64,000 nt of DNA, from assembly GCA_001599295.1 (NCBI GenBank), contig BCGN01000002.1, forward strand, positions 434,001 through 498,000, read 5' to 3'. Shown here in pieces: positions 35,691 to 48,138 of this stretch (the first letter of the stretch is position 1; each line of letters begins with the position of its first letter). This stretch comes from Sporopachydermia quercuum (taxonomy: Eukaryota; Ascomycota; Sporopachydermiomycetes; Sporopachydermiales; Sporopachydermiaceae). Position numbers and translations under genes: made by a program. The notes below the pieces were generated by a model. That model was not told the DNA's origin, searched no databases, and saw only the letters and a program-made list of their open reading frames with translations.

Positions 35691-37898
35691 TCAGAATTGA
35701 CTGCTGTATACTACTAAATTTCGATGATGATATGTCCCTTGGTACCATGACTCTTCTTCAATACGAATGCTGTCTTCACAATTCATAAGATCATATGAGC
35801 GTTCTACTTCAAACGCATTGTTGCATTCAGATGATAATTCATCATTACTATCATCATNCACAATCCTATAATTATTATCTGAATTAGAATCATTGTCATC
35901 ATCTTTACAGGCCGTTGAGCATTGACAATCAAGACTTCCAGGAAGATCTGATGAACCAATAGAATCAATAATGTATTCATTTTCACTCATCAAATCAGAT
36001 GGTAGTTCAAGTGAGTATTCAAGGTCAGCATTCGACAGTTGATTCAAAGTATTCAATCCTTCAATATTCATAATATAATCATTAACATTTTCATCGATAG
36101 ATTTCCCAATCCTTCCTTCATTAGCTCGTGGTATCTCCATTATGTCAAGTGATGAGTCATTATGGGTATTTTCGTTTTCATTCTCTAATGAATTTGAGTA
36201 CCTGTTTGAAGAATTCATTGAATGTTTAGCAAGTTGTTTGGATAAAAAATTCTTGGTACTAAACATAGATGCTTTTCTTGGTATTTTCTGTAATGACGAG
36301 AACTTTGGCTTCATGATTTCAAATGGTTCGTTGCTAATATGCTTTTGTAAATCATTAGAGCTATCAGTGTCAAAATCCTCGACTGCTTTTACATTCTCCG
36401 ACAATGCCTCTTTTCTTTCCAAGTCGATATAAGTCGAAGACTTTTTTGAACTTGATCCGACAAAATATGTTTGACAGGACAGCTCCTGGGCAGTCACTCG
36501 CTTACTGGGATCCCATATGAAGCATAAGGATAACCAATCAGTAAAACTAGGATCATTGAGACTCGGTGTCAAACTACTAATACGCTCTCCTTTGATCTAG
36601 AAAAGATTGGGTTAGTATCAGGTGATTATGCGTGAGCGGGGCATAAAGAATTGGAGATAGAACTATCAATGAGTGACATAAACACATGGCATTGATAGAG
36701 ATAAATCAACTCCATAATCTCAAGCACTAAGTATGACAACACGGTAATTAATACATCTGGAAATCCTATATTCGCCTTTTCGCATAATGTTATAGCTTCT
36801 GGCCATGATTTACCGGTTGATGAAGATGAATCGCTACCAATATTGGCTAATGATTCCAAGATGGATCTGAAAGAAGTTTCACCTTGCTTGGGAAAAGGAG
36901 TGCCTAACACTTTAAAAATTTTCCATATCTGGTCAATTTCATCATTCCCAGGGAATAAAGGGGCTAGATTTACGATTTCAACGGCTAAAGTAGCAAAGGC
37001 CCATATATCCACAGGTTTTCCATAACTATTCTTTCTTAGTAAGATTTCAGGAGATCTATACCACCTTGTTGAAACATATTCCGTGTATTTACTATTATCG
37101 TATATTGTTCTTGAAAGGCCAAAATCACCTAGTTTAATCACCAAATCTTTATTGGTGAACTTTTTCTTCGATTGATAACCCATTGGAGGGACAGTTACTA
37201 GAATATTCTCCGGTTTCAGATCTCTATGGAAAAATCCATTGTCATGAATATGTTTCATACCAGCTAGAATCTGGCTAAGAATGAATTTCACTCTTTTAGA
37301 TGGAAGGGCTTTACCGTTACGACCTTTCATGTACTGATGTAGATTCTGTTGCATGAATTCCATTACAATGTTGAGTCTGAACTGTTCAATGTCAATAAAA
37401 ACTTCAAACACCGATACTAAGTTCTCATGAGGAGGCATATCTCTGATGAATCGAATCTCTCTTTCATTATCGTAATGTCGAACATCCAACACTTTCTTCA
37501 TTGTTTTGATAGCCACCTGAAAATAAACATTAGTAGTAGTTAGAATGTGGCTTTTCAGTAAAGTAGATACAAGAAACTGAGATGAAGGGGTTTGTTCATA
37601 CCATATGTGTATGTTGGGAATATCCTGAGATCAGAGCAAATGAAGAAGACTTTTTATTGGCCGCAGCCGAAGTATTGGCGTTTATATCATTTGATGGTAA
37701 ACTAGATGGTAGCAAACCAGTTCTGAAGTCATTATCTCTGCAAACTTCAGCTAAGATAACAACTCCAAAGCTACCATTGCCTAATGATTGGATACCGGAA
37801 TACCGTTGACAATAGGACCGAAAGGGAATATTGATTCCTGGGGCCTCCCGTCCAGCACGCTGCAATTTTTGCTTTTCATGGTTGTTTCTCTGCTCCAT
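35691..37898 (-). CDS. IME2: Ime2 meiotic CDK-like kinase (two introns)
   Basis: Exons 37602-37898, 36755-37516 and 35691-36596, all joined in phase 0, give 654 residues (S. cerevisiae Ime2 is 645). Intron 1 is 85 bases (GTATGA donor, TACTAAT branch, TTTCAG). Intron 2 is 158 bases (GTATTA donor, TACTAAC branch, TCTAG). The kinase domain has LGNGSFG at 39-45, VAIK with K103, HRDLKPEN from H196, DFG at 230-232 and the RCK-family TEY at 244-246. Exon 3 completes it with DWLSLCFIWDPSKRVTAQEL. The C-terminal tail is Ser/Asp/Asn-rich. The start is the ATG of MEQRNNHEKQ; the open frame extends three codons upstream without ATG. Ime2 drives premeiotic S phase and the meiotic divisions by phosphorylating Sic1, Sum1 and Ndt80. 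Confidence 0.93.
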
Positions 37899-40845
37899 GA
37901 TTGACAATTTTTAGTGCTGCAGAATATGAAATTAATGCCTTCCTACTTAGGCTGTATGGATGATATGGGTATGTGGAATCTTATCAGCTTTCTGAAACCT
38001 GATATAGAGAATCTGAAAACAAAATTCAGGAGCTCTGATTTTGATTAAAGGCAGATTCACTTTCTCATAAACTTCAAAATAACAACAATCTTCATATCAA
38101 TAATAGCTAATCCACTTGATATATGATCTGTCAACTCAAGATTAATAAACTAGAAAACTTTCATCTCAAGAAATCAATCGGCTCTTTCCCTACAGTTCTG
38201 TACTTGATAATGGAGTAGTCCAATGTTCAGATAGGTAACATTCAGCTTATGAGCACTAGAGAAGATCGTCAGTGAGCGATGCATACTACGGATGATCTGT
38301 TCATCAGGCAGTGAAGAACAATAAAGAAAACAAAAGTGGATTTGTAATTTGAGTAAGTGTTTACATGAGCCGCAATAGCAAAACCCAGACAATAATAATC
38401 ACAAACGATAATGCTCAAGGGAAGACAAGATGGGGTATTAAAATATTACATAATCTTCTATGTACAATGAGGAATTTTAGAATAGGAAAAGTGTACACAA
38501 TAGTGCATTGGAATGCATGAGAAAGCCAGCCTAATAGGTGTAAGACAATGGAACGTGCAGCGGTGCACTGAGCAACTAATCAAACAATTAAATGAGGGTG
38601 TTCTATAACCGCTGGCCAAGTCAACAGAGGCGGTGAAACCAAAACTATTTTTACTCAAAATATATCATTCTTACCATCAATTAATTTTGCCTTTCCTCAC
38701 AGTGCATCTTCCTTAGGTCTGGTAAATGGGATGCCCTACGTATTTTTATGGGACATCGATGCCCCACAAGTCTAAGACAGATAGGTGCTTAGGCAGTGTG
38801 TCATATAAGTAATGAAAAGTCAATGCAAACTTGCTCCCAAACCATCGCTACGCTGTCTGATTTGATTCTGCACGTGTTTTTTTTCTTTCATTTCTTACTT
38901 TATAAAATTTCAACTAGTTTATTGAGATGAAAACTTAGATGCCCTTATGTCATTTGAATTGGAGGTACCCAGCGTAAATGATATTTGTGCTATGGAATCG
39001 TAAAGTAGCATTAATTGTGTCCGGATAGGATTTCCCAATGAGGCATTTAGAAATAATGTTGGCTACAATCATTGTCCTTTTATGGCTTATAATGAATATA
39101 GCAAGAATATATGTCTACGATGATGCTTAGTTCCGGATGTTTTACAATTGAAGTTTTAGACTGAAAACCGTTAATAGGATCTTTTAGAAGAAGAGTGGAG
39201 GAGGAAGCAAGCATAGCAAGAGAACTACAGGAGATTCAGTTTGGCAGTATTTGGAATATACGATAATTCACGAAACTTAATGCTGATTCAATCACACTCA
39301 TGTCCGATATCTACCAGGTTTTCAACTACTGTGGTGTGTGTCCGAAGAATATACGAACCGCTTCACTAGATATAAGGGACAGTTGGAAGCTCATCCTGGG
39401 TGACGGTTAGTACAATGATCCGGCTCGAATATTGATTAGAGCGTTGTCGACTGGTGAAGAGTTTGATGCTAACTAGATTGCAGCACATTATTTTCAGTAT
39501 GAATTTAAATATCTTACCTTTCCTCTTTGAACCACTGAAAATCGCTATTTTTTATCACATTATGCCCATGCTTTTCCTATGATCAATCAAAATCATTATA
39601 CATAGATGTCCAATAAGAGGTGCTCGTATGTTTACCAAATACTCATTCATTTTCAACCGGTTCATAAAATGTTTCAAATAGTAACCGGACAACGGTTTTC
39701 ATCCATATGACAAGAACTTCCGTCTTCTATTTACCATACACTCGGAGTATAAACAGAACAGCTTCCAAACCATTTCGGATACTTTCTAGTATTGTCAACA
39801 CTATATTCAAACGAGTACTACGCAGAACTATGTTCTCTCTCTAATGACCATTGTTCCATACTTCTTCCATTCAACTTCCCACAGTTGGGCAATTGACCCA
39901 GGTTTCAAATACACTGTCCGGATAAACAATTGTCCCATATCACACTTATTGTGTCCCAAACAACCGCTATCAAGAATTTTCTCCCATTCACATTGTCATC
40001 TCACTTTTACCGTCCGCAATTTTTCTCTCGCACTCTTTCTCCTGTCCCGAACTTGTTTTCATTCCAATGTATGTAATATGTAGATTCTTCCTGGAGATCG
40101 AGGCTTGGTTTGATAATAGTTACTGATGCAAATATTGTTGATCTGTAGAGCAAACTGAAAAAGTAAGCAAACCGTTTAGAAGGTGCTTGTTAAAGTAAAC
40201 ATTGAGTTGTACACTGTGGAACTGCAAGGTAGATCGGGCGATTGAAGCACTTGAANCAAACACATACCATACCAACTGGAAGTTAGTGAATTGTTTGTCC
40301 AAGTAAACAATACTNCAAAAGAAACGTCTGTTGTTGGTATTGAAAGAACAATAATAATCAAGTCAATTGGCGTTTAGTTGAATTGTAGTGAAGATTTGCA
40401 AAACAATTGGTTGCTGGGTATCAGAGTCAATTAAGTAGCTGATCGGCCGAACAAACAAACAAACAACAGTACTAGATAGTATCTATTGTCCATAATACCA
40501 TTCATACACTATTTACATTAGTCATAACAAAGTATCAAGACGCGAATAGATAAGAATTCTGATATAGGAAATCTCTGTATTGATCGATGGTTGGAAAATA
40601 GACAGAGATATCTGATTCAAATTGAATACCTGGTTAAGAACGTGGAACTTAATGGTGCTTGATATTTTGATGTATCATTGAACGTGGAAGGCTAAACATT
40701 GAGGTTCAACTAAGAGCAAGAAGGATCTATAAAGAATTGGACATTCAAAGGACATTCTCATATTGAATATTTCAAAAACTTATCATCAAACCAATCATTA
40801 ACAGAAGTATACTTCACCCTTACATAACTGAAATCTAACATCACA
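37899..40845. other. Long divergent region, IME2 and pogo-like gene
   Basis: About 2.9 kb with no supportable gene. IME2 promoters are long in other yeasts, so much of this may be regulatory. I saw no clear URS1 (GCCGCC) core; the closest is AGGCGGTGA near 38628. N positions lie at 40256 and 40315. No terminal inverted repeats were noticed next to the pogo-like gene. Confidence 0.5.
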
Positions 40846-42939
40846 ATGAACCAAGATCATCTANCCTCAACAGCACAAGGTGCGCTGACTCAATCATTGA
40901 GCACACACATTATGCTAACGAACACACAAGTTAACTCACAAGTTAATAGCTTGGGAGTGACAAATCAAGGATCACCAGCACAATCGTTACCAAGAAAAAG
41001 AAAAATACCTGATGACCATATTATCTCCCAAGCAATTGCAGAGTATAGGAACCCACAAAATACTAAATCTATCAGAAAGCTTGCTGCTGAATACGGCATA
41101 CCTAAATCAACTCTTCATGGACGTTGCAAAGAACAAGAAAAGTTGCTTTCGTCTCCTGACCAGACTCATTTGAAGGGCAACCGCCGTACTTCGAGATTTT
41201 CAGCGAATTTAACTGCATCACCAGCACATATATCTTCTCACGATGCNTCTAACTTAGCTGGCAATTCCCCAAACAACAGATCTGTTGTTGGAAATACTGG
41301 TATGGTTGGCGGTCCTGGAGGCATGCAACAACAACAACTAAGAAAGCCCAACCGACCAATGAATGCAGATATGGTAGATGGAACATCTTCAGGTGGAGGT
41401 AACACAGGAAGTGGCCAATCTTCCTCAGGACACGTTTCTCAGAACAATAGAGGTGTTCGATCGCGAGGAGGGATAGCTACAGGATTGGTGTCAAACGATG
41501 GAAGTACATTAGGGGCTTTAGGCTTAAATGATGATTTGGACTATCCAGCTATTGTCACATCTACTTCTTCATTGGGAACGATATCAACAGAAGCAAGCAA
41601 AGTGGCCAACCAATTGACAGCTATTGAAGAAAGTCTTTTGGCAATGTTTTTAGAAACCTTGTCAGCACTGTATTTCACACCAACTAGAAAGCTGATTGAG
41701 TCTTATGCTTTGAATATACAAAGCATGAAGTTTCATGACTATATAAGACGTCAGAAATCAAATGGACTCAGTGTACCTATTGTCAATAATTTATTAGGAA
41801 TGGAACGAGGCATTTGCCATATCAGATCACAGTTTGTTTCTCGCCTGTTTAATAGACTCTCTAATAGAAGAGTCGGCAGTACTGCTATTACTTTGACAGA
41901 TTTGCTTGCTTCTTCTATGAATCTCCATCTTAGAAGTGGGCCCATTGGTCAAAATTCAGGACATCACAATAATAGGACAGGAAATAACAATAATAACGGG
42001 TCTAATGCTAAGAATAATAACACTGGTGGTAACTCTGAGACCGGCAATAATGAAGCCAATAACGCTGATCCTGGTAACACTATGTCTCCTGTACTTAGTG
42101 ACATCTATTCAAGTGCCAATGCCTTATCCTTCGGAGGAATTGATCTTCAAATGCGTGATTTCACTGTTTTACTACCAATTTTGATCAACAGACTTAACGT
42201 CGCCATAGATAATGTCTTCTTCCTCAACGAAGTCTCATCTACTGTTTCCTCATCCTTATCGTCCGGAGAAGCAGGAGGNACTATTGAATTCTCAGAAACA
42301 AACACTATCACTCTAGTAGAACTAGTAAGAGGATCAGGTACCCTGGTTAACCCAGGATATTTTATATCTAAATTTGAATCAATAGGTACGGGCTCATTGA
42401 ACTCTCAAGCTTTAGATTTAGCATCAACGAACCCGGAGATGTTTGGATCGCATAATGCAAATCTATTTGCTCTTCAAGAAGACAGTCAGCCACCTAGTAG
42501 CTATCAAAGCATAACATTAAGAACAGGATCATCTTCAGATGGATTTTTCCACTCACGAAATGCTTCAGAATACTTCCAGGATGTTTTTGTATTTGATTCT
42601 CAATACAAAATACTTGTTGTTGATCGTTATATCTCGTTTCTCAATGAAGAGATTTTGGACTTCTTTCGAAGAAACAAGATTATATTATTATTTCTTCCCA
42701 GTATTTATAACAGTCCTTATAATGAAACAAATGGCAGTATTTCTAGCAATGTAATGTTGAATTTAAGCTGCAGTTTCTTAAACCAGGTTCGAGGTATCCG
42801 GAACCAATTGGATTCAATTGTACAGAATTTGGAGCAAGAAACAAGTGACAATACTATCTCTGGTGTTATTCGAGTTAGAAGTAACACGTTCATAAATGAT
42901 TGGATTGCTAAGTATGAAGGTGCACGAGCACGACTATAA
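40846..42939 (+). CDS. Domesticated pogo/CENP-B-like transposase derivative (HTH-psq, CENP-B HTH, DDE_1)
   Basis: 697 residues in one uninterrupted frame. A Pipsqueak helix-turn-helix occupies residues 57-100 (IRKLAAEYGIPKSTLHGRCK). After a Gly/Ser/Asn linker, residues 259-345 resemble the second (CENP-B/Tc5) HTH: EESLLAMFLETLSALYFTPT, then SQFVSRLFNRL. After an Asn-rich insert, residues 440-640 resemble the DDE_1 nuclease core of pogo/Tigger elements. NVFFLNEVSST stands where MDETG is usual, TNTITLVELVRGSGTLVNP follows, then YKILVVDRYISFLNEEILDF and IILLFLP. The first aspartate is N461, the second D593 is kept, and the third position is N629. A cutting enzyme is therefore unlikely; a DNA-binding regulator like S. 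cerevisiae Pdc2 or S. pombe Abp1 is more likely. The specific role is unknown. Three N positions (40864, 41227, 42280) fall in linkers. Confidence 0.82.
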   Translation: MNQDHLXSTAQGALTQSLSTHIMLTNTQVNSQVNSLGVTNQGSPAQSLPRKRKIPDDHIISQAIAEYRNPQNTKSIRKLAAEYGIPKSTLHGRCKEQEKLLSSPDQTHLKGNRRTSRFSANLTASPAHISSHDXSNLAGNSPNNRSVVGNTGMVGGPGGMQQQQLRKPNRPMNADMVDGTSSGGGNTGSGQSSSGHVSQNNRGVRSRGGIATGLVSNDGSTLGALGLNDDLDYPAIVTSTSSLGTISTEASKVANQLTAIEESLLAMFLETLSALYFTPTRKLIESYALNIQSMKFHDYIRRQKSNGLSVPIVNNLLGMERGICHIRSQFVSRLFNRLSNRRVGSTAITLTDLLASSMNLHLRSGPIGQNSGHHNNRTGNNNNNGSNAKNNNTGGNSETGNNEANNADPGNTMSPVLSDIYSSANALSFGGIDLQMRDFTVLLPILINRLNVAIDNVFFLNEVSSTVSSSLSSGEAGXTIEFSETNTITLVELVRGSGTLVNPGYFISKFESIGTGSLNSQALDLASTNPEMFGSHNANLFALQEDSQPPSSYQSITLRTGSSSDGFFHSRNASEYFQDVFVFDSQYKILVVDRYISFLNEEILDFFRRNKIILLFLPSIYNSPYNETNGSISSNVMLNLSCSFLNQVRGIRNQLDSIVQNLEQETSDNTISGVIRVRSNTFINDWIAKYEGARARL

Positions 42940-44152
42940 CTGATCTAGATAATTGAGATGTGGTGAAAGTGCTGAGATAAAATAGTATATTAGTGGTACA
43001 TTAGTTAGTATCTTGGTATCGTTGATGACGGTGCGTTATAGTGTTGCTTATCAATAGCACTATCTACTTAGTGATTTATTATTGTCATTATCTCTTTATT
43101 CTACGGTTGTTCTCTTTGTTCCTTGCCTGTTGGTATATCATTGTTGCTACACTTTTGTCCATTTCCTTTCCTTCTCTTTTGCTATTCCCTGTTCTTTCTT
43201 TTTTATTCATAAACACTGCGCTCATGGAGGATGGTTAACCAGGAGCCCAGTTTATTACGGCTTTATTTTTTCTATCTCTTACGGGGATAGCTGGGACTGG
43301 AGATTTATAACTTTTACCTAACTGACAAAAACAGTTTCACCCTATTTCTAGTATTTTTATTTCATTATCTTATTGACTTTACCTCCCTATTTTTGTATTG
43401 TATGATTGCTCTTTTTCTGTCATCCTGCATCTCATTCTTTTCTTTCAATGGTTCATTGATGGCGATTGACGTCTGCACCACGCTGGGTATCAACGTGACT
43501 ACCTATCTGCTACGGTGTGTTTGGTTGCGGAGGACATATATGTGTTTTTTATATTGCCATTTTGCTATGTGTTGTGTATAGTAGTGTGTATTCTATTTGT
43601 TTGTATATCTACCTGTTTTATATTGTGGAAAAAACTGATTTTTATATACTATAACGGTAAGATTGTAGAAGAAGAACTCGAACCAGTATTTGACATGGAG
43701 CTCAAANACTATTGAAGAACTGGTAGGAGGATATGCACTACTAGTAGATTCTGTGCATAGATGCTCATTATGTATCCTTTGGTGAATTAAACCAAAAAAG
43801 AAGCNATACCTTTTTCTCTTTCTCATAATCACGTTGGAATCTTTCCAGAGGTAGTATCACTCAACGTCTTCTCTCCCTCTAGAAGATTATACAGTGAGAG
43901 CTGATACCAGGGAAGGGTAACTAAACATGAAAGGAGACATGAAGGCCTTGGATCTCAGTCTCATTGGGCAAGCAATGTGAGAATTATTCACTTCTTATTA
44001 GTGTCTGTCCTATCCGATAGTACCAGTCATATAAATAGATACGATGCCATCTATCGCCGTAAACAAAATATCGAGATATTATTCTTATTATCAGCAAATT
44101 GGGTGTTGAATCGAAAACATCAATCATTGTTATAAGCTTTATTTAGTACAAA
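42940..44152. other. Intergenic, pogo-like gene to CPR3
   Basis: About 1.2 kb, T/C-rich at 43080-43640. Overlapping short frames on the plus strand come from that base bias and encode only hydrophobic, low-information peptides. N positions lie at 43707 and 43805. No gene is called. Confidence 0.5.
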
Positions 44153-44847
44153 ATGTTTGCCAGAATTCATACTACAGCTTTCGCTTCCAGCAAGAGATTT
44201 TTCTCTTCCACAGTTGCTGCTAATAAAACCAAAGTGTTCTTCGTACCTGGTGTTTACGAAGGAAAAACTGGTAAGTTCCAATTGGTGTCTGAATGGCTGT
44301 AACCCATGTTTAGATATGGCGAAAGCTTTCAGTTTCGTTCGAAATTGAACAAATGAATCCATTGTATTAACTGAGTACTCTAGCGAAGCCATTACCAAAA
44401 ATCGAATTTGAACTATATGATGACGTTTGTCCTAAGACAGCTGAAAACTTCAGAGCTCTTTGCACTGGTGAAAAGGGATTTGGATATGCCAACAGTCCTT
44501 TCCACAGAATTATTCCCCAATTCATGATTCAAGGCGGTGACTTCACTAATGGCAATGGTACTGGTGGTAAATCTATCTACGGCAACAGGTTCGATGACGA
44601 AGACTTTTCCAAGAAGCATGATAGACCTGGCCTTTTATCTATGGCTAATGCCGGTCCCAATACCAATGGATCTCAGTTTTTCATTACCACTGTTCCTTGC
44701 CCTTGGTTAGATGGAAAGCATGTTGTTTTTGGTGAAGTTACTGAAGGTTATGACACTGTTAAGATTCTCGAGAAGTATGGTTCTTCTTATGGTACTCCCT
44801 CTGCCAAGATTGTTGTTCTTGAAGCTGGTGAAATCAAAGACGAGTAA
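44153..44847 (+). CDS. CPR3: Mitochondrial cyclophilin Cpr3 (one intron)
   Basis: Exons 44153-44270 and 44384-44847 flank a 113-base intron (donor GTAAGT, branch TATTAAC, acceptor CTCTAG) and encode 193 residues (S. cerevisiae Cpr3 is 182). The first 20-25 residues ([20 protein letters not shown]) are basic, Ser/Thr-rich and free of acids, a good matrix-targeting peptide. The cyclophilin fold follows: [34 protein letters not shown] with the catalytic arginine, [20 protein letters not shown] and [12 protein letters not shown]. The enzyme is a peptidyl-prolyl isomerase helping matrix protein folding. A cytosolic Cpr1 would lack this leader. Confidence 0.93.
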
Positions 44848-46027
44848 ATAATTGAGCTTGCTTCTATCTAGTTGTAAGTGCTTAATGATATAATGCTTCT
44901 TGTATATGACTGATGATTTATTCACTGAATTGAATTGAATAGAAGTATTTAATATGAATGCATAGTAGATGCAAGTTTATGCATGTCATGAAATGTATGA
45001 CTTAAGTTGTTTTGATAGTGTAGTATGTCGAAGACGCTGATGGACACGAGCATAGTAAAGCGCGACGTAGCAGGAGCGGTTCCTATAGCCTGGTCAACAT
45101 ACATTATGCAATTATAAAATTAATTTTGGCTACTTAAATAATCCACCTAAATAATCAAACAAATTAAAGCAAATCTCCTAAAATACTAGTAAAATCTATC
45201 AAAAGTATAGATTCTAAAAGTATTTCTAAATCATTTCCACTTGATCTCCCGGCCTCCCCCTTCAATATACAGTCTTTGTCGTATGTCACAAACCTTTCCG
45301 CTTACATCGGGATTTGCTTCACTTTTTCCTTACATTAATCACAGTCACCCCTTTCTTCTACTGAAGATAAGTAAATCGATTGATATCATAATACCTTTTG
45401 ACTATAATCAACCACTTGTGATCGATGACAGAGCACTGTTCTGCTTCATTGTTGTATGGTATGTAAATCTTCGATGGGTATCTCTTGTTTTCTATGATTG
45501 ATGTCACATATACATATTCGTCACCTTGTATCAACGACGCACTGTCGGAGACCGTATGTACTGGATCCGAAGGTTATCAACTACAGGAGTATCAATAACA
45601 CTGCATACAATTACTATACACTTGATACCTGAAACAAATCAGGCGTTTTCATGACACAAAGCGCTCCCAACGGTTTTGCTTGTACCTGTGGGCCAATCAC
45701 ACAGGTCATAGGATCTGATCTATTGTCATGATATGCTGATATAGGTAGTATAGTAAGCAGGGACACATAACTTTTTAAACAGATGGACGCACTTCTACAC
45801 ACTTCCCTGTTAATCGTGAAAAACGGTGATCATCAAAATATTTAAAACCATGCGGGAATATCTAGCTTAACTGATAAGATCGTTGATTTTTACTAACAAA
45901 CATCTGTTCTCGAACAGCATAGAGTAATATTGTCTATTGCTTTTCAACTTTTTTCCATTACTCAGCTACTTCTATAACATCCAATTGACTCAAGCCATTG
46001 GGATTACGTGAGCATTTATAATTCACA
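44848..46027. other. Intergenic, CPR3-ENT3
   Basis: About 1.2 kb. The small frames at 45241-45501 and 45614-45802 look random. It presumably holds the CPR3 terminator and ENT3 promoter. Confidence 0.5.
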
Positions 46028-48138
46028 ATGGATTCCATCAAAGATAAGATCCAGAACATATCATTGTATGATGTGAAGGCTTACGTCCGGAAGGCGCAAA
46101 ATGGTAAGTAGAAATTGGTTGTGGTGGTGAAAAGAGGATCGTTAGAATGTATGGTAAATCCTAATGGAAGTCATTCACAGAGTGCAATGTGACCGGGCAG
46201 AGTAAACATGATAGTTGATGATATAAATGATGGTTTACCTTAAGAGAGAATGATAGAAACTTTTTTGTCAATGCAGAACATAGTTCTTGCTACAGTCTTT
46301 CAATGCCCTCAACGTCTGCTCAATATATTAATAGCTTTTTTTCTTGAACCAACAGCAGTTCGAACTGAAAAAAGATTGATGAGAATGGACCATGCACGAG
46401 GAGTGAGGTTAGATTGACAACTTGGTTGGGGATACAGATTTGCAGTAAAGGTGTCACTGATATCTGGCAATAAGGATAAATCATGTCACTATGCAAATTT
46501 CTAGAGTGAAAATGAAACGAAGTACTTAGAAATGGAAGTCTTGACTAATTGTCATTCTCATGTTTCTTGTTTGCCTGCCTGTTACCTCCTCTCATCAGCN
46601 ACTGCTATGCTGTCATCTTAGCTACCTATTCTATCGGGGGTTTCCAAAAACCCTTGTTTTTCTTCCTATTTGTACACGACAAGTTTTGTCAATGTCACTT
46701 GTTCAATTGTCATGGTAATCAGCTACTTAATGTACTATTGAAGCAATGCAACCCTAGCTATTCTGTCAACCTATCTAACATGATCGATCCTTTATCTTTA
46801 TTTCTCTTGATTCTTCTATTATCACAGCTAACAAAATTTCTAGCCGTTATGAATTACACTGAAACCGAAGCTAAAGTAAGGGAAGCCACCAACAACGAAC
46901 CTTGGGGTGCCAGTTCTACTTTAATGCAAGAAATTGCCCAAGCTACAAATAACTATCAACAACGAGTAGAAGCCTTAAGTTTCATCTTCCGTAGATTTCA
47001 AGATAAGTCAGCCCACGAATGGAGACAGATTTACAAAGCTCTACAATTATTGGAATATCTCATCAAAAATGGTAGTGAAAGAGTAATCGACGATGCTAGA
47101 GCTAACCTAAGTCTTATACAAATGCTCAAATCTTTTCATTATATTGATCAAAATGGTAAAGATCAAGGAATCAATGTTCGAAATAGAGCAAAGGAGTTGA
47201 CTGTTTTACTTAATGATGACTCATTAATACGATCTGAACGGAAAAAGGCAAGAGAAAACTTGCAAAAGTATAAAGGAATGTCGTCAAATGGATTATATGG
47301 TAATAGTTCAATTGGTGGAAGCAGTTATGCTTCAAGTTCTAATTACGGGAATGAAGATTATTACGATGATACCACCGGGGAGTACGGTGGATATTCTGGA
47401 GGGATTTATGGTGATGGAGGAGTTTTTGGTGAAAGGTTTGATGCTGAAGATTCAGGAATAAGAAGTTCTAGAGGAACTGGTAATGGTTTCACTAGTGGAA
47501 GTAGAAGTGAGAAGAAAAGATTTGAGGAGTATGAAGATAGTAGTAGTGAGAGTGTTAATGATAAGGGATATTCACAAGCAGCCACCAGTAAAGTTAATGC
47601 TGCTGGCAGCTCGAGCCGTGCTAGTTCTGGTGCTGGAGCTGGAGCTGGCAGTTTAATGGATTTCCTTGATGCGCCACCTGCAAGTTCCGCAGGTGCTGCA
47701 ACAGAGGACGACGATGAGTTCACCGATTTCCAAACGGCACCTACAGAAACTGCAACTGGCACAGGATCTGCTGTAGCACTAAGTAAAGATATCCTTGCAG
47801 ATTTATTCAGCTCTGGCTCCAGCAACACTGCTNCTAATAATGATTTGAATGTGTTCATGTCAAATGTTCCCCCAGCCAATTCCAATTCGAACTTCAGTGG
47901 CAACTTTGGTTCTAACTCCAATACCTTTGGCTCTTTTGCTACTAATACTGGTAGCACCAATAACACAGCTCAATCTAATGTTTCTTCTGCATCATCAAAA
48001 CCTGACCCTTTTTCTTCATTGTTGTTCTCTGCTAAAACAACCAAAAAGAGTGATCATCATGCAAGAAGTGTTGATGCGGCTAGTACTAGCACCAGTAAAC
48101 CAACTACTGCTGGAAATTCTATGGACTTATTACTATAA
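46028..48138 (+). CDS. ENT3: Epsin-like adaptor Ent3 (one long intron)
   Basis: Exons 46028-46103 and 46844-48138 encode 456 residues across a 740-base intron (donor GTAAGT, GCTAAC branch, TTCTAG). Exon 1 reads MDSIKDKIQNISLYDVKAYV, and the junction joins RKAQN to AVMNYTETEAKVREATNNEP, exactly as in the Ent3 ENTH domain (residues about 1-165). The open frame in exon 2 runs upstream into the intron and would give a false hydrophobic N-terminus. The tail is Ser/Gly/Asn/Tyr-rich. It carries DEFTDFQ near residue 316, which resembles the acidic-phenylalanine motifs that bind gamma-adaptin ears, and a C-terminal leucine cluster. Ent3 binds PtdIns(3,5)P2 and clathrin/GGA/AP-1 for Golgi-endosome sorting. 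One N lies at 47833. Confidence 0.92.

Follow-up and report, generated by a model that had tools for sequence, protein, structure and literature searches.

In this work, a gene of Sporopachydermia quercuum, here called gene A, was found that is likely to be a host gene of pogo-superfamily transposase descent, with DNA cleavage lost and a regulatory DNA-binding role in its place. Taken part by part, sequence comparison makes descent from a pogo-superfamily transposase highly probable, the protein very probably no longer cleaves DNA, and a putative DNA-binding regulatory role is favoured somewhat less firmly. Descent and loss of cleavage rest together on profiles built from relatives in the same genome, on an Asn-Asp-Asn reading of the catalytic triad, and on the finding of one copy without convincing terminal repeats. 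Gene A lies in the window, the whole stretch of 64,000 nucleotides that was analysed (C2:434001-498000, within a genome of 16.4 Mb in 12 contigs). Its features, in window coordinates, are as follows.

40846-42939, forward strand: gene A, predicted transposase-derived protein; 697 codons, codon usage in frame, one copy found
41011-41133, forward strand: HTH1, Psq-type helix-turn-helix (residues 56-96); Pfam HTH_psq E 1.7e-6, 50% identity to relative B over 40 residues
41134-41631, forward strand: Ser/Gly-rich joint between HTH1 and HTH2, 166 residues, bounds by eye
41617-41889, forward strand: HTH2, CENP-B/Tc5-type (residues 258-348, approximately); begins within the last part of the joint given above
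41926-42117, forward strand: Asn-rich joint before the core, 64 residues, 28% Asn
42184-42711, forward strand: degenerate DDE core, HMM-aligned part (residues 447-622); B/F/C profile made without A, 19.5 bits
42226-42228, forward strand: Asn461 codon, first catalytic Asp position; DDE profile alignment, bases read
42622-42624, forward strand: Asp593 codon, second catalytic position, kept; DDE profile alignment, bases read
42712-42936, forward strand: C-terminal part of the DDE-derived region, beyond the main HMM match and ending W..KY like B; MAFFT alignment
42730-42732, forward strand: Asn629 codon, third catalytic position; ungapped extension and the 35-residue spacing of relative C, bases read

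The frame is undisturbed, as the initial annotation had proposed: 697 residues are read from ATG through the stop in the window translation, and frame 0 has the best codon usage among the six readings (0.201 bits per codon, with an antisense reading as runner-up at 0.103). The reference for this score was 13 window genes, of which those read as RSE1 (0.163) and SET3 (0.286) were scored in the same way, both inside the training set. The motif scan found no GTATGT, GTAAGT, GTACGT or TACTAAC within gene A, so its long joints are without obvious intron character. Three single N bases fall in codons 7, 134 and 478, and the window holds 38 such isolated bases. Over the 13 window and 6 family genes, 18 N bases are divided 5/6/7 among codon positions 1, 2 and 3 without bias, and thus they look like assembly ambiguity and not polymorphism; their treatment as heterozygous sites was set aside, the 5/6/7 split being uninformative. 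CTG was read as leucine because CTG codons occupy apparently conserved leucine sites, and in the GTGILSM motif of a methyltransferase-like window frame the CTG falls at what we take to be such a site.

Nine window proteins were compared with Pfam, and six carried domains, including protein kinase, ENTH, SET/PHD and Gsf2; the nearest domain-bearing tested proteins are the kinase on one side of gene A and the ENTH protein on the other. The kinase gene (35691-37516, reverse strand), presumably Ime2-like, has its Pkinase match on 36626-37516, and a second frame at 35691-36572 seems to continue it; this second frame could be due to an intron, a frameshift or a sequence error, or could be a gene of its own. 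The nearest PDB chains to an RPL4-like window protein are yeast L4 proteins, the best being 7pzy chain l.

The Pipsqueak helix-turn-helix, named in the initial annotation, is the one domain that direct searches recover with confidence. Among 24736 Pfam models, HTH_psq was the sole one over its cut-off in protein A (residues 60-96, E 1.7e-6), and CENP-B_N (0.036, overlapping HTH_psq) and SpoIIID (0.16) lay below theirs; over the genome, CENP-B_N gave two sub-cut-off matches, of which A is the better. Neither HTH_Tnp_Tc5 nor DDE_1 matched the full protein significantly at E<=10, and HTH_ABP1_N was absent from the same list, which is incomplete because the HMMER filters discard most matches above about 0.1. 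An excised 60-residue piece of A gave HTH_Tnp_Tc5 at E 0.23, behind DUF5965 at 0.038, and two excised DDE pieces gave no Pfam match; DDE_1 searched over the whole genome had two matches, genes C and D, and A was not among them. PDB searches returned four matches with the A sequence (best E 0.31) and four with the HTH profile (best E 0.097), and PHROGs returned nothing at E<=0.1. An AlphaFold2 model of the DDE region, made from four sequences, had a pLDDT of 35, too low for the RNase H-like fold expected of such a core to be read from it.

Searches within the same genome gave five further loci, of which E is the more doubtful member.

Gene B: C2, L014:664-2346, reverse strand; 560 aa; psq 4.8e-9, Tc5 7.6e-4, DDE_1 0.0015
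Gene C: C2, L015:664-2553, forward strand; 629 aa; DDE_1 2.1e-7 (over cut-off), psq 0.14
Gene D: C10, L016:535-2298, forward strand; 587 aa; DDE_1 2.3e-29, Tc5 3.6e-7
Gene E: C6, L017:445-4029, reverse strand; 1194 aa; Tc5 0.0014
Gene F: C9, L018:1196-3409, forward strand; 737 aa; only a weak psq match, 0.15

In gene B, psq is over the cut-off and DDE_1 below it, and Tc5 is below in the protein scan and over it in the genome search, as is also the case for the Tc5 match of E. Gene D matches fission-yeast Abp1 faintly (PDB 1iuf, E 0.012). These relatives are distant from A. Pairwise BLAST gave weak, collinear matches (A-B 455-622, E 0.02; A-F 249-299, E 0.008; A-F 534-635, E 0.64) together with one non-collinear A-F match (E 0.64). 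As genome queries, B found F and A, F found B, and C found only itself; one copy of C was found. By tblastn at E<=1e-3, no relative of protein A (P0001) was found in genome_contigs, and none of A, B or D in viral_contigs. Single-sequence hhalign confirmed one link of A, to HTH1 of B (94%), with low values for HTH2 of F (13%) and for C (0.3%), D (0.8%) and E (0.2%).

The CENP-B/Tc5 helix-turn-helix and the DDE_1 core emerge when the relatives are combined into profiles. Whole-length MAFFT of the six proteins misaligned the domains, and alignments of excised segments were used instead. The HTH profile (A4) and the DDE profile (A3) were built from B, F and C, aligned without A, and each is domain-specific, ignoring the other domain. 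A4 scored 33.9 bits on HTH1 and 15.3 bits on HTH2 of A, with shuffle maxima of 7.2 and 10.9, and A3 scored 19.5 bits on residues 425-697, with a shuffle maximum of 14.3. None of 2000 shuffles reached the real score for the psq, HTH2 or DDE segment (1912, 1786 and 1836 shuffles, respectively, were scored at all, the remainder falling below reporting). A set of 375 stop-to-stop frames, each 80 residues or longer, was drawn from the window together with 20 stretches 10 kb long, and in it A ranked first with A4 (42.9 bits, E 9e-13; runner-up 7.2) and with A3 (16.4 bits, E 8.4e-5; runner-up 6.6). An HTH2-only profile also ranks A first (13.9 vs 5.7 bits); its B, C and F rows come from an alignment made with A present, so it is not independent of A. 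When D, visibly misaligned, was added to the A3 set (profile A2), A fell to 7.6 bits, a score reached by 4 of 2000 shuffles, and the separation among the 375 frames was lost (6.1 vs 5.6 bits).

In pairwise comparisons, the DDE score of A was equalled or exceeded by 0 of 1000 shuffles with B, 12 with C, 14 with F and 70 with D. The corresponding counts out of 2000 were 2 (B), 0 (F), 174 (C) and 1611 (D) for HTH2, and 0 (B), 0 (F), 51 (C) and 166 (D) for HTH1. By these scores A groups most clearly with B and F, and its link to DDE_1 runs via B and C. The claim of a Tc5-type helix-turn-helix and a DDE_1 core thus did not stand on Pfam matches to A itself, but both domains are found by profiles that exclude A. 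The initial annotation had named the lack of a Tc5 or DDE_1 match as evidence against it; Pfam indeed gives none for A, and this is outweighed by the leave-A-out profiles from the genome's own relatives.

The A3 alignment spans residues 447-622 of A and places N461 on the first catalytic Asp and D593 on the second. N629 lies outside the HMM-aligned stretch and was assigned through ungapped extension and the equal spacing in C, and with this qualification the triad Asn461, Asp593 and Asn629 proposed earlier holds. So does its spacing: 35 residues lie between the second and third positions in A, as in C and F, compared with 37 in B, 29 in D and 92 in E. The triads of the relatives, picked by eye from the alignments, are D289, D406 and E442 in C; D204, E309 and K347 in B; D198, D310 and D340 in D; Y473, E609 and G645 in F, with the third position doubtful; and D457, D614 and D707 in E, where the choice is doubtful. 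The catalytic residues of B, F and E differ, and these genes have long joints at positions that differ between them. An active transposon is expected to have three acidic residues, of which A has D593, with N461 and N629 at the other two positions. Gene C might retain nuclease activity, judging from its D289-D406-E442 residues and its DDE_1 match over the cut-off.

The Asn-rich linker described before is present in the tabulated 64 residues, and the Ser/Gly-rich joint is unusually long. By bounds set by eye, 166 residues separate HTH1 and HTH2 in A, compared with 14 in B, 15 in F and 19 in C. CENP-B places two helix-turn-helix domains side by side on DNA. Given a gap unlike this adjacent pair, the A protein probably does not bind DNA as a single rigid bipartite unit.

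Near-identical copies with terminal inverted repeats, which would mark an active element, were looked for, and neither a further copy nor convincing repeats were found. A search of the 16.4-Mb assembly with 5 kb around A, which passes over simple repeats and highly frequent words, gave no second DNA copy; it returned A itself and one 65-base flank match on C5. This downstream match was rejected as a repeat, being part of a cyclophilin gene by eye reading. This apparent cyclophilin gene runs from about 44385 to at least 44660 (forward strand), just 3' of A, and is perhaps spliced; it has an 81% identical stretch at C5:1327598-1327696. The interval 38800-45500 contains 20 imperfect inverted pairs (71-93% complementary), none of which makes a convincing terminal inverted repeat. 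Two of them bracket A and do not resemble transposon ends: in one, arms of 16 nt (88%) are separated by 6.2 kb (39045-39060/45216-45231); in the other, arms of 18 nt (78%) are separated by 3.1 kb (40451-40468/43587-43604), and one arm is an AAC-type simple run. Rfam gave no match at E<=0.1 in window positions 38000-46500. Excerpts of one study show the domestication of Dipodascaceae CBT7 being argued from similar grounds, namely that it lacks terminal repeats, occurs once and sits at one locus shared by two strains (PMC10085805).

It was considered whether A could be a Psq-domain transcription factor of fungal type, with a C-terminal part not of transposase origin that resembles DDE only through a chance pattern of hydrophobic strands. 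HTH_psq alone passes the Pfam cut-off, single-sequence hhalign detects only HTH1, the D-containing profile barely separates A and the DDE model is uninformative. However, the leave-A-out HTH and DDE profiles put A first among the 375 frames, with the domains in the expected order and no shuffle reaching the real score; the A-B DDE alignment is likewise unmatched by shuffles, and B and C carry DDE_1 matches of their own, that of C over the cut-off. This reading is quite improbable. A transposon copy in decay, or one that died recently, would fit the loss of the catalytic positions, but it is very improbable in view of 697 stop-free codons with host-like usage, the missing second copy and terminal repeats, and protein relatives that are all distant; a neutral relic so diverged should, we infer, have lost its frame.

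A third reading is that A is domesticated and still nicks or processes DNA, perhaps during a programmed rearrangement, through an active site that has changed. Domesticated transposases are named as acting in K. lactis mating-type switching (PMC10085805, in excerpt), D593 is kept, and relative C retains D-D-E. Two of the three metal-binding positions in A are nevertheless Asn, the third by extension, and we regard continued cutting as very improbable. The reading of a transposase turned host gene, already given in the initial annotation, is supported: descent by the collinear B and F matches (weaker for C) and the profiles. The triad reads N-D-N, and one DNA copy was found, lying between host genes.

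For such a transposase-derived host gene, we hypothesize that the A protein would be unable to cut or join DNA and would contact specific DNA mainly via HTH1, while HTH2, carried on a long and flexible joint, would add a further contact. The former DDE core may then serve as a scaffold, in dimerisation or in partner binding, and the protein may regulate transcription or chromatin, with promoters, or else repeats and centromeres, as possible sites of action. It is more speculative, and improbable, that A, B, F and C, perhaps with E, form a domesticated pogo set, like the fission-yeast Cbp1 set, which jointly binds and silences repeats or marks centromeres, with the helix-turn-helix domains of A as a tethered pair reading two separated sites and the D-D-E nuclease of C still working.

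Domestication within the pogo superfamily has been described for fission yeasts and for Dipodascaceae (PMC10085805) and, with several altered triads, in vertebrates (PMC7386202), and a fungal survey reported a high share of host-transposon fusions in Saccharomycotina (PMC10799480), as far as excerpts of these papers go. Excerpts of the first describe Cbp1/Abp1, Cbh1, Cbh2, Cbt1-6 and Dipodascaceae Cbt7 as being of pogo-superfamily transposase origin like A, most of them with tandem N-terminal helix-turn-helix domains and a DDE/D domain (Cbt2 is without the former), and, as seen here, with often broken triads and several diverged members per genome (PMC10085805). Unlike A, this set is grouped with the Lemi family, and its S. 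pombe members bear an ABP1 N-terminal domain, according to part of the survey (PMC10799480). In A, on the other hand, HTH1 is of the Psq type and HTH_ABP1_N is unlisted, and the faint Abp1 match belongs to D.

Vertebrate CENP-B, TIGD, JRK and POGK are, like A, pogo-derived with helix-turn-helix and DDE_1 parts, and in some the third residue is changed (TIGD7 DD34N, TIGD6 DD30N), as excerpted (PMC7386202). In A the first Asp is also changed, it is Psq and not CENP-B_N that passes the cut-off, and the two helix-turn-helix domains stand 166 residues apart. Fot elements have the order Psq, Tc5 and DDE_1. These Fot-family transposons, widespread in fungi, belong to the same superfamily (PMC7386202, in part), whereas A, with its broken triad, was found once and lacks convincing terminal inverted repeats.

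Pdc2 is a yeast regulator with CENP-B-type helix-turn-helix and DDE_1 parts. Gene D on C10 presumably resembles it, and more closely than A does; the relation of A to D is weak at best. In S. cerevisiae, Pdc2 takes part in the control of THI and PDC genes (PMC11304959, in excerpt). DNA-binding proteins are known to arise by transposase domestication, and few budding-yeast cases surfaced in the open-licence literature; among the matches listed there, no account of gene A or of such a budding-yeast set was found beyond Dipodascaceae Cbt7. The diverged pogo descendants reported here, some of which Pfam overlooks or only just detects, suggest that counts in yeasts may be too low and that profiles of relatives from the same genome can recover such genes. 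Gene A is thus a further case of a well-documented kind of domestication, and what is less usual is the presence of at least four related genes in a small genome and the split helix-turn-helix pair.
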